From an uncultured Erysipelotrichaceae bacterium (lineage in GTDB: Bacteria; Bacillota_I; Bacilli_A; RF39; UBA660): a stretch of DNA of 41,705 nt. The stretch lies in the NCBI GenBank assembly GCA_902778125.1, contig CACYWH010000014.1:1-41705 (forward strand), in the 5' to 3' direction. The position numbers and the translations under genes were made by a program. Under the pieces are notes generated by a model. The model had not been told where the DNA came from. It ran no database searches and saw nothing but the letters and a program-made list of their open reading frames with translations. This document shows, piece by piece, positions 1 through 10,554 of this stretch; position 1 is the stretch's first letter, and each line of letters begins with the position of its first letter.

Positions 1-261
1 ACTTACACAATATTCTAAACTTGAGTTCCCAGTAAGTGGTAATTTATTTGAACTACTATTAAATGATTGAGGTATTCCTCCACCTAGTAGATATTGTTGC
101 TCTGTTGTTCTTACTAATACATTTACTTCATTTGTAAATGAATCTACTCTTGCTTTTTCAAACATTCTTAAAACTGCTGGTAATGCCATTATTACTAAGA
201 TTGCTAATATTGCTATTACAGCTAATAATTCTACTAATGTAAATCCTTTTTTATTTTTCAT
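1..261 (-). CDS. Type IV prepilin-like protein (3' end outside window)
   Basis: The reading frame stays open to the window edge, so only the first 87 codons are seen. It begins MKNKKGFTLVELLAVIAI, a textbook class III signal: a short basic leader, the G|F cleavage site, Glu at mature position 5, then a hydrophobic helix to about residue 30. Such proteins are cut by prepilin peptidase and assembled as pilins or pseudopilins. An AGGTGAT ribosome binding site lies just before the ATG. The visible part after the helix is polar and ends near LPLTGNSSLEYC. That LPLTG is internal and is not a sortase signal. It may belong with the pseudopilin operon at 6.9-9.7 kb. Major pilin versus pseudopilin cannot be decided from this part. 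Confidence 0.85.
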   Translation of the reverse strand, partial: MKNKKGFTLVELLAVIAILAILVIMALPAVLRMFEKARVDSFTNEVNVLVRTTEQQYLLGGGIPQSFNSSSNKLPLTGNSSLEYCVS

Positions 262-6017: not shown

Positions 6018-6944
6018 ATGAAATCAATTATTAAAAATGTAATATTAACATTAGTTTTATTAATATTTATGCTAAATATTAATATAGTTATTAATTCTAC
6101 TAAGGAAGCAACACTACTCTTCTTAAATAAAATATTTATATCTATTTTTCCATTTATAATATTATGTGATATTTTAATATATTTTGATTACCATATTTTT
6201 TTAAAAAGAATTTTTGGTAAATTCTTATCTAAAATATTTAATATAGATTCTTCTTGCTCTATTATTTTTATATTGAGTTTATTAACATCATCCCCTGCTA
6301 ATAGTATATATATTAAATCTATGCTTGATAAAAAACAAATTGATATAGAAACTGCAAATAAAATACTTAATTTTACATACTTTCCTTCTATTTCTTTTAC
6401 AATTGGAACAATTGGTATTCTAATGTATAAAAGCTTCAAATTTGGGCTATTTTTATGGTTATTTTGTTTATTAAATAATATATTAATTGGAATATTTATG
6501 AGGAAAGAAAATACTACTACTTTTAATATTATAGATGAGAGAAAAATTAATTTTTTTGAAGTATTAAAAAAATCATTTATAAAAGGAATTAAAACATCAA
6601 TAACTATACTAGGAAATTTAATAATATTTACAATAATTTTAAATATTATTAATAAATATTTTACATTCAATAAAGTATTCTATTCTATATTTAGTGGTTT
6701 TATTGAATTAACTAGTGGAATTACATATGTAAATAAATTAAATATTTCTTTAATATACAAATTTATTTTAACTTTCTTTATTTTATCATTTAATAGTTTA
6801 TCAGTAATTTTTCAATCTTTAAGTATACTTTCAAATTATAAAATAAATATTAAAAAAACATTAATTGTTAAATTAATGTTTAGTTTAATATTATCTATAT
6901 TAATGATATTAATTAAAGATTGGCTAAGTTTAATAATTCTCTAG
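6018..6944 (+). CDS. ylbJ: YlbJ-like sporulation membrane protein
   Basis: A 308-residue protein, almost entirely hydrophobic helices, with the nucleoside-transporter-gate-like features of YlbJ: a conserved SSPANSIYIKSML segment near residue 92 and FPSISFTIGTIGIL near 118. In Bacillus ylbJ is a sigma-E gene needed for normal spores. It is the only plus-strand gene in the first 16 kb. No ribosome binding site is visible before the ATG, which follows an AT-only stretch with a TATTAT-like box about 12 bp upstream, so the mRNA could be nearly leaderless. Its 3' end overlaps the convergent pseudopilin gene by 32 bp. Confidence 0.85.
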   Translation: MKSIIKNVILTLVLLIFMLNINIVINSTKEATLLFLNKIFISIFPFIILCDILIYFDYHIFLKRIFGKFLSKIFNIDSSCSIIFILSLLTSSPANSIYIKSMLDKKQIDIETANKILNFTYFPSISFTIGTIGILMYKSFKFGLFLWLFCLLNNILIGIFMRKENTTTFNIIDERKINFFEVLKKSFIKGIKTSITILGNLIIFTIILNIINKYFTFNKVFYSIFSGFIELTSGITYVNKLNISLIYKFILTFFILSFNSLSVIFQSLSILSNYKINIKKTLIVKLMFSLILSILMILIKDWLSLIIL

Positions 6945-8109
6945 CATTATCTAATGATGTTGCTTGATCTATTAATTTTATTATACCAGTAGTACTAGTA
7001 TTATCTAAGTTTCCATCCATAAATCCTTCAGTTGATGATACGTAATAGTTAGTACCATTATAATTAATTATTTGTTCATATGTATATATTTTTGAGGTAT
7101 CATCATCTGAATAAAATGCTACTGAATCAGCAGTTGTTCCAACTAAAATTGGTCCTGTATTTTCAAGTGAAGTATAATAATATCCTACATATGCACTTCC
7201 TGCATATTTTTTATAATAATTTCTACTACCTAGTTTTGCTATTAAAGCATTAGCAGCAGTTATTTGTATATTAGTTGGTTTCCATTTGGCATAAATCGTT
7301 TTATCAGATGTAGCAATGGTAGATGCTGTCACTTGTGTTCCATTAGATAAATTAGTCCACCAGCCGTCAAAAGTCCAATTTGTACGTGTTGGAGTACATA
7401 ATGTACCTAATGCAACTCCATCTTTAATTCTTTTAATTGTACAACCACTTCCACCATTATTATCATAAGTTAATGTATAAAGCGTTGCAGAAGTATCAGC
7501 ATCAACTGAAGATGTTGAATATAAATTTATGTTATATTTAGCATCACTCATTTCAACTGTAATTCTAAAAAATAAATCTTTTAATGAACTATCAACAACA
7601 CTAGGATATTCAAATGAACTTTTAGATAAACTTATAAATTTATAGCCTTGTGTAGATTTACCGCCAGTAGCTTCTCCAGTTTCAGGATCTAAATAATCTG
7701 TCACTATTTGAGATATTGTTTTTAAATATGAATATGTACCAGCAACTTCAGAATACCTTAATGTTGTAATTTGTGCTGTTCTTTGAGCAGTTGGTTGTCC
7801 ATTAGAATTTCTAACATATTCATATGTTTTATCCATAGTTAACAATTCTAATTTCATTTTCTTATTATTTCCAAGAGTAATGTTACAAAGTGTTCTACTA
7901 CAAGTTACACTTTTAACTCCATTGTTTTTCATAAAATGCTCATTTATTACTTTGGAAACTAATGCACTATATGTTCTTGCTTCTACATCTTCATTAATTA
8001 TATTATATGAAGCTTTTAGTCTTATTAAAGTTCCAATCATTGAAATTAAAATTATTCCAACCAAAGTAATACTTATAATTAATTCTACTAAAGTAAAACC
8101 TTTCTTCAT
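6913..8109 (-). CDS. Prepilin-like protein with InlB-type repeat
   Basis: 398 residues. N-terminus MKKGFTLVELIISITLVGII is a class III prepilin signal with Glu5 and one helix. The middle (about 205-280) contains TLTYDNNGGSGC, FDGWW and KTIYAKW, the signature of the InlB B-repeat/Flg_new beta-grasp unit common on bacterial surfaces. A polar C-terminal domain follows with no recognised fold. AAGGAGG precedes the ATG. Last gene of a three-gene pseudopilin operon. A plausible role is a minor pilin or tip adhesin. The fusion of pilin signal and B-repeat is unusual, and no pilus ATPase or peptidase is in the window. Confidence 0.85.
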   Translation of the reverse strand: MKKGFTLVELIISITLVGIILISMIGTLIRLKASYNIINEDVEARTYSALVSKVINEHFMKNNGVKSVTCSRTLCNITLGNNKKMKLELLTMDKTYEYVRNSNGQPTAQRTAQITTLRYSEVAGTYSYLKTISQIVTDYLDPETGEATGGKSTQGYKFISLSKSSFEYPSVVDSSLKDLFFRITVEMSDAKYNINLYSTSSVDADTSATLYTLTYDNNGGSGCTIKRIKDGVALGTLCTPTRTNWTFDGWWTNLSNGTQVTASTIATSDKTIYAKWKPTNIQITAANALIAKLGSRNYYKKYAGSAYVGYYYTSLENTGPILVGTTADSVAFYSDDDTSKIYTYEQIINYNGTNYYVSSTEGFMDGNLDNTSTTGIIKLIDQATSLDNARELLNLANL

Positions 8110-8118
8110 AATTCCTCC

Positions 8119-8613
8119 TTATAATTTCAATGATGCATAATAATACTTACCACTTCTATAAAATACTCCAACTATATATCCAATTGGATTATTACATGTA
8201 CCAGGTGTAGCATCATTACATCTTTTTAATGTCTTTAAATATTCTATTGTTCCACTACTATATCTTGTAGATGCTCCAGTTCTTAAATCATTATATAAGT
8301 TTGGAGTAAATATAAAATATATCATATTATTATCTTTAAATACTTGAGTACAATCACTCATTCTATCAGATAGATATGTTGAGCAATTATTTACATTAGC
8401 CACAAATATACCACTTGCAGAATATTCTGCAGAAGTATCTCCTAGATTTCCAATATTATAAAGTAAATATTTATCAGATGGTAAATCATAATAGTTTTTT
8501 TCTTTTGATTTTCTTACTACTAAAGAATAACTAGACAAAAGAAGTGTTAATGATAAAATTACAACAACTAACACAGTTACACTTTCAACAAACATGAAAC
8601 CATTTTTTTTCAT
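8119..8613 (-). CDS. Prepilin-like protein (minor pseudopilin)
   Basis: 164 residues starting MKKNGFMFVESVTVLVVVILSLTLL: short leader, G|F cleavage site, Glu at position 5, then a hydrophobic helix. After the helix it is a small globular domain with four cysteines (NCSTYLSDRMSDC; RCNDATPGTC) that could form two disulfides outside the membrane. GAAAGGAT lies before the ATG. Middle gene of the operon with short gaps on both sides. It resembles ComG-like or T4P minor pilins in architecture only. Confidence 0.8.
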   Translation of the reverse strand: MKKNGFMFVESVTVLVVVILSLTLLLSSYSLVVRKSKEKNYYDLPSDKYLLYNIGNLGDTSAEYSASGIFVANVNNCSTYLSDRMSDCTQVFKDNNMIYFIFTPNLYNDLRTGASTRYSSGTIEYLKTLKRCNDATPGTCNNPIGYIVGVFYRSGKYYYASLKL

Positions 8614-8624
8614 AATTATCCTTT

Positions 8625-9674
8625 CTATTCTGATAAGAATGTTATTTTAGCATATCCATTACCAGAGTTTCCAACCATAGTACTACTTCCATCATGAGTT
8701 GGCATATTAACCACAGATGCACTCTTAGAAGTTGTCCATTTATATCCATTACCATCAATCATAACAGTATTTATAAATCTTAATCCTGAATAATGATAAG
8801 AGCAAACAATATCATTAGTGTTTTCAAGACATTGTACACCATTTGAATCGAGTCTAGGTGTTGTAGTTAATTCAGAAGCAGATGCTACACAACCTTTATG
8901 ACCAGATATAAATGATGAACCACCACCAGCATTAGAAGCGTTACCGCCTTCTCCGCCATAATATCCGCCTCCGCCTGCAGATGTAGCTATTGCTCCCATA
9001 CCATACGAAGAAGAAGTTTGATGTCCACCTACACCAGTATTTGAGCCACCAACTCCAGAGTAACCATATAATCCACCACCAGCGCCACCAGTGTAATTTG
9101 TCCCGCTATAATAAGCTCCACCACCTCCGGCAGCAACCATAATTCTAGATCTTAAACTATTTGGATTACTCCATTGTCCACCTTCAAGTCTTACATCAGT
9201 GGCGCCTCCACCACCTGAGCAAGTACCAGAAATATTTCCGTTAAATGCAGCATTATTGTTACTAGCCACGCAATTAGATGCAGCAACTGTTGGATATTGA
9301 CCAACATACACATGTAATCTAGTATCTTTTTCTAATTTTATTTCACCTGATGTATAGGCTCCCTTACCACCAATATTTATACTAGTTCCTTTACCGCCTT
9401 GAGCTCCCCATAGTTCTATCTTATAATTACCTGTACATCCTGTAACAAAAGTTTGTTCTTTTCCAGTATAATCAAACACCCATTCTTGACCACCAGCATA
9501 TGGACAATAATCATATTTATTAGGTGTTGTTACAGACACATTAATATGTTCATCTATTGCTTGCAAAAATTTATTTTGTTGTGTATAAGCATTTAAAACA
9601 GCTAACATCAAAAATAAAAATAATACTAAAAATGTATAAACTAATGTCATTGAAACAAAACCTTGTTTTTTCAT
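8625..9674 (-). CDS. Pilin-like anchored glycine-rich surface protein
   Basis: 349 residues. N-terminus MKKQGFVSMTLVYTFLVLFLF looks like a prepilin leader plus helix but lacks Glu5 (Met/Thr instead), so methylation and assembly may differ. From about residue 70 it is a glycine-rich domain (FTGCTGNYKIELWGAQGGKG, GGGGATDVR, AAGGGGAYYSG, AGGGGYYGGEGG, NAGGGSSFISG) matching the bacterial/ALK-type glycine-rich domain rather than simple repeats. Cysteines are spread through it. First gene of the pseudopilin operon, with AGGTGAT before the ATG. Likely displayed on the cell surface. Ligand unknown. Confidence 0.8.
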   Translation of the reverse strand: MKKQGFVSMTLVYTFLVLFLFLMLAVLNAYTQQNKFLQAIDEHINVSVTTPNKYDYCPYAGGQEWVFDYTGKEQTFVTGCTGNYKIELWGAQGGKGTSINIGGKGAYTSGEIKLEKDTRLHVYVGQYPTVAASNCVASNNNAAFNGNISGTCSGGGGATDVRLEGGQWSNPNSLRSRIMVAAGGGGAYYSGTNYTGGAGGGLYGYSGVGGSNTGVGGHQTSSSYGMGAIATSAGGGGYYGGEGGNASNAGGGSSFISGHKGCVASASELTTTPRLDSNGVQCLENTNDIVCSYHYSGLRFINTVMIDGNGYKWTTSKSASVVNMPTHDGSSTMVGNSGNGYAKITFLSE

Positions 9675-9719: not shown

Positions 9720-9737
9720 AATCTACAATTGTAGATT
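9720..9737 (-). terminator. Intrinsic terminator after ysxE
   Basis: AATCTAC-AATT-GTAGATT hairpin followed on the minus strand by a T-rich tract. It overlaps the ysxE stop codon. Confidence 0.75.
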
Positions 9738-10554
9738 ATTTATTTTTACTTACAACATTAATTCCGGAATAAATATAATTAATAGTATTTTTAATATTTA
9801 AAGTATTTTCATATTCATTATTAATTTTATCTATTTTAGGTGGAATTGATATTAAAATATTTAATAACATTTTTTCTTCTTTTGAAAGCTCTAAATTTTC
9901 ATTATAAATGTCTAATAAATAATTAAAATCTAATCTATATCCATCTTTTTTATAAAAGTTATATATATCTAATATTGGAGTATCAACCACATGTTTATCC
10001 CAACTTAAAAGATAATTTTTCCCCTTTGATACAAAATGATCTAATGATAAATTATTATGTACAATACACACTCTCTCTTTAGTTTTATTTGATACTATAT
10101 TAAACCATTTCTTTAATTCTCTTTCTGCATATTCTAAACTACTATCTATAGAAGAATAATTCCTAGCAAATAAGTAGTTACTTGGAGACATATATTCTTC
10201 CTCTTCTATTTTAGATATTAATTCTAAGTAATATTGTTTTAAATACCTAATATTACCAAGTATTTTATTATATATTGTTCTATATTTATTTTTACTAACA
10301 TCTTTATAAAATATTGTTTTATTATGAAGAGAGCTTACAGTTTTAATTAATTCTACTCCTTTACTAATTTCATAATAATTTTCACCTTTAATATATTCCA
10401 TGGTATATGTTTCTTCATCTTCAGAAATTATACTTGGATAATTATCAAAATTTCTATATTTTAAATAATCAAATAATTCACTAACATTATTAGTCTTTTT
10501 TTTAGATACACCATCTTCTTTTATTATTACACTATTTCGAATTTTATTATTCAT
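9736..10554 (-). CDS. ysxE: YsxE/CotS-like spore coat kinase-fold protein
   Basis: 272 residues with an aminoglycoside-phosphotransferase-like fold: MEYIKGENYYEISKG (hinge region near 52), VCIVHNNLSLDHFVSKG (162-178, the catalytic-loop position) and LSWDKHVVDTPILDIYNFYKK (metal-loop position). The catalytic loop has lost the usual HGD (HNN), so activity may be reduced or absent. CotS/YsxE proteins are spore-coat associated. Bacillus encodes ysxE directly after spoVID, and here the start ATGAATAA overlaps the spoVID stop. Name rests on this pairing plus the fold. Confidence 0.8.
   Translation of the reverse strand: MNNKIRNSVIIKEDGVSKKKTNNVSELFDYLKYRNFDNYPSIISEDEETYTMEYIKGENYYEISKGVELIKTVSSLHNKTIFYKDVSKNKYRTIYNKILGNIRYLKQYYLELISKIEEEEYMSPSNYLFARNYSSIDSSLEYAERELKKWFNIVSNKTKERVCIVHNNLSLDHFVSKGKNYLLSWDKHVVDTPILDIYNFYKKDGYRLDFNYLLDIYNENLELSKEEKMLLNILISIPPKIDKINNEYENTLNIKNTINYIYSGINVVSKNK

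Follow-up and report, generated by a model that had tools for sequence, protein, structure and literature searches.

The window analysed here, 41,705 bp in length, is the whole of contig C14 (CACYWH010000014.1, 25% G+C) of an uncultured Erysipelotrichaceae bacterium of the RF39 lineage; its genome assembly (GCA_902778125.1, here G000) comprises 1.27 Mb in 50 contigs and is 87% complete. RF39 bacteria are described as thin-walled, with both sporulating and non-sporulating species (PMC10868615, in excerpt), and as genome-reduced (PMC12306168, in excerpt); some relatives come from the gut of goats and, as the isolate name "Lapin" suggests, from rabbit. Three consecutive minus-strand genes at positions 6913–9674, P3, P2 and P1, are separated by 11 and 9 bp and encode proteins with prepilin leaders. 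They constitute a K-I-J minor-pilin cassette, the equivalents of PilK/PilI/PilJ and of ComGG/ComGE/ComGF, respectively (Table 1).

Table 1. Features of the minor-pilin locus in the window (a slash in a leader marks the predicted cleavage point)
Feature	Position	Strand	Description
P3, K-type minor pilin with glycine-rich head	8625..9674	-	349 aa; leader MKKQG/FVSMT; without Glu5
P3 stalk, residues 1-50: prepilin leader and alpha1 helix	9525..9674	-	conserved in 15/15 genus K proteins; alignment A1, model helix 9-43
P3 head, residues 60-349: ALK/LTK-type glycine-rich domain	8628..9497	-	PF12810 E 1.7e-40; fold Z 12.6-14.2
P2, I-type minor pilin, undecorated	8119..8613	-	164 aa; leader MKKNG/FMFVE; weak ComGE match
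P1, J-type minor pilin with InlB-type repeat	6913..8109	-	398 aa; leader MKKG/FTLVE
P1 pilin module, residues 1-203: helix 7-61 and beta-sheet 65-203	7501..8109	-	AlphaFold2 model; S. sanguinis PilB Z 5.4 over 40-207 (weak)
P1 InlB-type B-repeat, residues 211-275	7285..7479	-	PF09479; sequence and fold matches
P1 C-terminal region, residues 280-398	6916..7272	-	low model confidence; no assigned family
YlbJ-like (sporulation) convergent neighbour	6018..6944	+	TIGR02871 145.1 bits, cut-off 304.65; 32 bp overlap with P1 end
YsxE-like (spore coat) upstream neighbour	9736..10554	-	TIGR02904 96.1 bits, cut-off 263.55

Leaders and domains of the three genes

The initial annotation had proposed three prepilin-leader genes here, and a filter for such leaders (short and net positive, a G/F junction, then 21 hydrophobic residues; applied to ATG-initiated open reading frames of at least 120 aa) picks out exactly P1, P2 and P3 among the 42 frames of the window, while shuffled N-termini pass it 12 times in 84,000. 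Among family models, the N_methyl family PF07963 is over its cut-off on P1 only (E 3.2e-5; the NCBIfam prepilin leader model gives 22 bits against a cut-off of 16.3), P2 has nothing over cut-off in Pfam and P3 has no N_methyl match there. The mature P3 N-terminus is F1 V2 S3 M4 T5, so that Glu5, kept in P1 and P2, is replaced by Thr; its loss from the glycine-rich protein had been noticed at the outset. The accompanying label was "pseudopilin"; because that word is called a misnomer (PMC10191384, in excerpt), "minor pilin" is the better term.

Two of the three proteins carry additional domains, as had also been recognised. Residues 211–275 of P1 match the Listeria-Bacteroides repeat (Flg_new, PF09479, E 4.1e-13; NCBIfam List_Bact_rpt 29.7 bits, cut-off 20.95), and this repeat resembles the InlB B-repeat of PDB entry 2y5p in sequence (E 0.0032) and in fold (Z 9.7), with a Treponema sialidase domain at Z 10.1. 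In P3 it is ALK_LTK_GRD (PF12810) that is matched, over residues 81–347. The P3 sequence has no match at E 0.01 among solved structures; by fold, its head finds ALK/LTK chains first, then the cyanophage Pam3 fibre (Z 10.1) and the Bxb1 phage tail tip (Z 9.3), and since these two phage proteins have the same fold, the P3 head is not necessarily a close relative of the animal receptor. Of 17 candidate stretches from a scan of viral sequences for the glycine-rich domain, one proved to be a relative; there (L144, 2965–4605, a viral contig) a glycine-rich stretch opens a phage-like structural protein and lies, by reading, beside other phage-like structural genes, in agreement with the phage-fibre fold match.

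AlphaFold2 models were built from 9 sequences for P1 (mean predicted local distance difference test score, pLDDT, 73.2; predicted template modelling score, pTM, 0.44) and from 7 for P3 (pLDDT 64.3, pTM 0.68). The P1 model has a long helix, a beta-sheet, the repeat and a poorly modelled tail. In that of P3 the helix is followed by the glycine-rich domain without a pilin sheet, and the stretch that joins helix to head (residues 43–54) is under pLDDT 50. A head tethered merely by a helix is what one would expect if the leaders served as membrane anchors only and P1 and P3 were singly displayed surface adhesins that never polymerise. We consider this very improbable in view of the glycine-phenylalanine leader, the conserved helix, the presence of a prepilin peptidase in the genome (see below), the retention of Glu5 in I and J with its loss in K only, and the beta-sheet of the modelled J pilin module.

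Promoter-like sites around the trio show no excess (34, against 35.4 in shuffles), and the two terminator-like sites (0.6 in shuffles) lie inside P3 and inside P1; we therefore claim no promoter or terminator for these genes.

A conserved locus with differing heads

A search with P3 finds a K match in 15 of the 18 genus genomes (all but G001, G008 and G011). The first ~50 residues are conserved in all 15 K proteins, and position 5 is always T or A, never E; Glu5 is present in 13 of 13 I proteins and in all nine aligned J rows. The usual gene order in the genus (locus L060 was read in part) is lon, SpoVID-like, YsxE-like, K, I, J and a convergent YlbJ-like gene. Among the departures from it, G003 has two copies of J, G005 yielded no I, the order of K and I is inverted in G010, and the YlbJ-like neighbour was not seen at the loci of G017, G009 and G010; the loci of G014 and G015 stop at a contig edge. 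At the position expected for J in G009 there is a protein of 1028 aa whose N-terminus resembles a plain signal sequence (L064, 872–3958).

Outside the genus the I profile has matches in 167 of 386 family genomes and 79 of 150 genera, many of the weaker ones covering only part of the profile; against PDB sequences at E up to 1 it finds 12 chains, none of them a pilin. In the 27 I loci that were read (L117–L143; L117 is G002 and thus inside the genus), a J-type leader follows I in 26 (L130, L135 and L138 called by eye) and the 27th is truncated by the end of its contig. In eight of them I comes after a K-type leader with Ser5. In one relative I-J divergently adjoins a pilB gene whose product is 63% identical to PilB of G000, and this links the cassette with the PilB machinery.

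The gene neighbourhood could suggest instead that the structure decorated by the trio, a pilus or a secretion-type pseudopilus, is connected with sporulation or with the surface of the spore and is not a vegetative adhesive pilus: homologues of the YlbJ-, YsxE- and SpoVID-like neighbours lie beside the trio in most genus loci, and outside the genus J is often followed by a hydrophobic gene of ~300 aa in convergent orientation, which is YlbJ-like only in its position and by reading. However, the neighbours score well below the cut-offs of the sporulation models, the SpoVID- and YsxE-like genes are absent from the interval between lon and the pilin genes in G009 and G010, G002 has a solitary K with I and J elsewhere, and in the relative just mentioned, which belongs to another genus, I-J lies next to pilB. 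A sporulation role for the trio is thus improbable.

The heads vary while the stalks are largely kept. In alignment A1 the K head is glycine-rich in four genomes (the window, G003, G006 and G013; PF12810 was tested with Pfam in the window and G003, and G006 and G013 align throughout), and in 11 it is an unrelated domain that we call "YWTMSP", a count that comes from the alignment and not from a family model. For the "YWTMSP" head Pfam at E 0.01 gives nothing with L060 and, with L058, only DUF1189 in the helix (15.8 bits, cut-off 28), and NCBIfam at E 1 gives nothing for three members. A fifth glycine-rich K is found on a K-I-J contig of this lineage (L070) that is filed under a Methanobacteriaceae archaeon genome (RUG12825), probably through a binning error.

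The same domains also occur on other stalks. In G017 and G015 it is the I stalk that bears PF12810, behind an InlB-type PF09479 repeat, and both of these genomes have the "YWTMSP" head on K; in G014 a glycine-rich head with 40% identity to that of P3 sits on a major-type pilin stalk. J has one matched InlB-type stretch in the window, four in G013 and five in G003, and further J heads are Gly_rich_2 (G003) and DUF285 (G004), while J of G005 matched the leader model only. The I protein of G012 has a choline-binding-like repeat, below cut-off, and that of G007 is similar by reading. The decorated I proteins of G017 (588 aa) and G015 (542 aa) are long compared with those of the 27 loci read (147–248 aa, from proteins without a domain scan; frames of more than 500 aa do occur among the weaker I matches), so the grafted heads on I look derived. 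In a tree of Lon proteins the four genomes with a glycine-rich K group together in one clade (100/100), apart from G015 and G017, and G004, which bears the other K head, is the next branch (90/92); this branching suggests that the K head changed, in either direction, while the stalk stayed put. Among the 14 genus genomes compared, which are related to each other, I is decorated in none of the seven with J beside it and in four of the seven without, J having been sought beside I only, the G015 locus ending soon after I and that of G017 being rearranged; this hints that a head is added to I only in the absence of J.

The initial annotation had asked whether such domains co-occur with prepilin leaders elsewhere, and for the glycine-rich domain they do. 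PF12810 is present in 174 of 386 family genomes and in none of 14 named control genomes. Thirty of these family loci were read, one per genome and taken from the best matches; ten of the genes start outside the DNA read, and 13 of the other 20 have a prepilin leader (12 by the filter, L170 by eye), of which L168, L171 and L172 are K-type by reading.

Modular pilins are known already and common, and a domain grafted on a pilin can directly mediate adhesion (PMC8179133, in excerpt); what is new here is the exchange of heads among stalks at one conserved locus. The available portion of that text names neither PF12810 nor PF09479, which its Dataset S1 of 264 architectures may hold. We found no work that joins the glycine-rich domain, pilins and ALK, and PF12810 only for a fungus; InlB, B-repeat and pilin do co-occur in published texts. 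With somewhat less than even confidence, we propose that a fixed K-I-J chassis at one conserved site, with heads swapped among K, I and other pilins and with the K head borne on a helix that lacks a sheet, may allow different lineages of these gut bacteria, which have small genomes, to retarget one pilus.

Pilus machinery and a predicted tip complex

The assembly machinery that the initial annotation said should be sought is encoded in G000: a PilB-type ATPase (PF00437, 410.8 bits) on contig C2 with a pilin gene adjoining, and on contig C5 a two-domain platform protein (PF00482) followed by a type IV prepilin peptidase (PF01478, 56.7 bits; G000 was the sole genome searched for it). Directly after the peptidase are, by reading, two TasA-like secreted proteins (L007, 2032–3276). 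Across the genus a PilB-type ATPase (at least 385 bits) is present in 17 of 18 genomes, the remaining one being G011, which is 76% complete and is also among the three without a K match; the platform protein is present in all 18. The sole other PF00437 match over cut-off in G000, on contig C37 (L005), is a CpaF-type ATPase in a Tad-like cluster whose other members were named by reading, and similar second-rank matches recur across the genus.

By its sequence features and their conservation the trio fits the published model in which a minor-pilin tip complex starts assembly of type 4 filaments and is capped by a subunit without Glu5 (PMC10191384 and PMC9934059, both in excerpt); K lacks Glu5 in all 15 genomes and so is as expected for the capping subunit. 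Since the trio fits this model and modular pilins are known, the best reading, to which we assign a probability of roughly 0.6, is that the trio forms a modular K-I-J tip complex of a monoderm type 4 filament in which K and J (P3 and P1) bear heads that are likely binding modules. The prepilin peptidase of the genome would cut the leaders of P3, P2 and P1, and an I-J-K complex would start filament assembly on the PilB-type ATPase and platform protein, with K capping the tip. K and J would be the modular pilins, K with the glycine-rich head directly on its helix and J with the InlB-type repeat and a further region after its pilin module. The tip would then present these heads, most likely for binding to neighbouring cells, mucus or plant fibre; that they mediate adhesion is argued by analogy with other modular pilins. 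The stalks would form a chassis that is for the most part fixed, as is its locus, with the heads being exchanged both between species and from stalk to stalk. The decorated pilus tip suggested from the sequence at the outset thus becomes the best-supported reading, with leader processing, filament assembly, tip position and binding as its predicted parts.

Several observations weigh against it. In G000 the trio is on a different contig from pilB and pilC/pilD, amid sporulation-like genes. The J module resembles Streptococcus sanguinis PilB weakly (Z 5.4, 3.5–3.7 Å over 107–108 residues, amid unrelated rows; VIA-align), and the 50 best rows of a Foldseek search with the P1 model include no type 4 pilin. 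Among the 14 genus genomes in which the positions beside I were examined, J is absent from them in seven (G016, G017, G015, G012, G007, G009 and G010), which means that the complete K-I-J set is not universal. An H/ComGD equivalent was not identified and none was found beside the trio, the 19 N_methyl matches of G000 not having been sorted for H. The major-type pilin of G014 with its glycine-rich head means that decorated pilins need not be confined to the tip; seven of the 20 judged family PF12810 genes have no prepilin leader; and no ligand of a bacterial glycine-rich head was found in the literature examined.

The main rival uses the same chassis for another purpose: a Com-type DNA-uptake pilus with the trio as ComGG-ComGE-ComGF, the heads contacting DNA or biofilm and not a host. 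Com pili have an eight-protein machinery without PilT and PilMNO (PMC10191384, in excerpt) and their tip contains four minor pilins, ComGD-G (PMC12153270, in excerpt). A ComEC-type protein is present in 16 of 18 genus genomes, G000 among them; in G000, at 87% completeness, no PilT was seen and there is no PilM_2 match, so that its machinery leans to Com if anything. The relatives differ in that PilM_2 has low matches in all 17, over cut-off in 10, in frames of 413–426 aa, which are FtsA-like in length and which we presume may be FtsA. ComGE is the best NCBIfam pilin equivalog for P1 and P2, but weakly: its scores are 20 and 17.6 bits, respectively, against a cut-off of 49, and those of ComGF 14.8 and 14.1 against 80. 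Nor do the pilins lie in a comGA-comGG operon; the trio, pilB and pilC/pilD each occupy a different contig, and we know of no DNA-binding role for glycine-rich or InlB-type heads. We judge DNA uptake to be unlikely, though less so than the spore-linked and anchor-only explanations.

Pilins are also dispersed through G000. Thirteen of its 19 prepilin matches have a near-identical N-terminus, LVELLAVIAILA[IV]LVIMAL (window 1–261, minus strand; L008–L013, L015–L017, L019, L021 and L023). Nine of these 13 extend past the end of their contig, among them the one at the left end of the window, and at least five have ~50 bp of upstream DNA in common with the window copy, the flanks beyond 100 bp looking unrelated; this family may be what breaks the assembly. 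We note that two of its members have G-tracts between TTGACC and TATAAT: a G10 tract in a 17-base spacer (L021, 1453–1481, which is G000:C19:20366–20394) and a G5-A-G5 tract (G000:C30:10254–10283; L015, L146) before a gene that reads as a 33-aa fragment. The pattern occurs at these two sites in G000, at none in 17 relatives and at none in a reversed control, and promoter phase variation is possible.

Comparison with known systems

If the tip-complex reading is true, uncultured small-genome gut Bacillota may diversify their attachment by keeping the tip assembly parts and exchanging binding modules between subunits, and the glycine-rich head, with a fold common to ALK/LTK receptors and phage fibres, is a concrete protein with which to search for a ligand. 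The closest parallel is the PilABC tip complex of S. sanguinis (PMC9934059 and PMC8179133, both in excerpt), which likewise belongs to a monoderm host and comprises three minor pilins, one plain (I-like) and two modular with adhesive domains, one subunit lacking Glu5. It differs in that the plain PilA is the subunit without Glu5 and the heads are vWA and lectin domains, whereas in the trio the Glu5-less K itself bears a head, and the heads are glycine-rich and InlB-type and vary between relatives and between stalks. With PilHIJK, GspHIJK and ComGD-G the trio has in common a conserved K-I-J set, a K without Glu5 and a modelled J pilin module; unlike them it has no H beside it, its modelled K has no pilin sheet, and heads are grafted on K, J or I. 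The P1 repeat is like the Internalin B B-repeat in both sequence and fold, but it is a single repeat on a pilin, and Pfam matches neither a leucine-rich repeat nor a wall-anchor family on P1. Finally, P3 is like the ALK/LTK receptors in its PF12810 match and in its fold over residues ~60–349, and differs from them in that the domain sits on a pilin helix and not on a receptor kinase.

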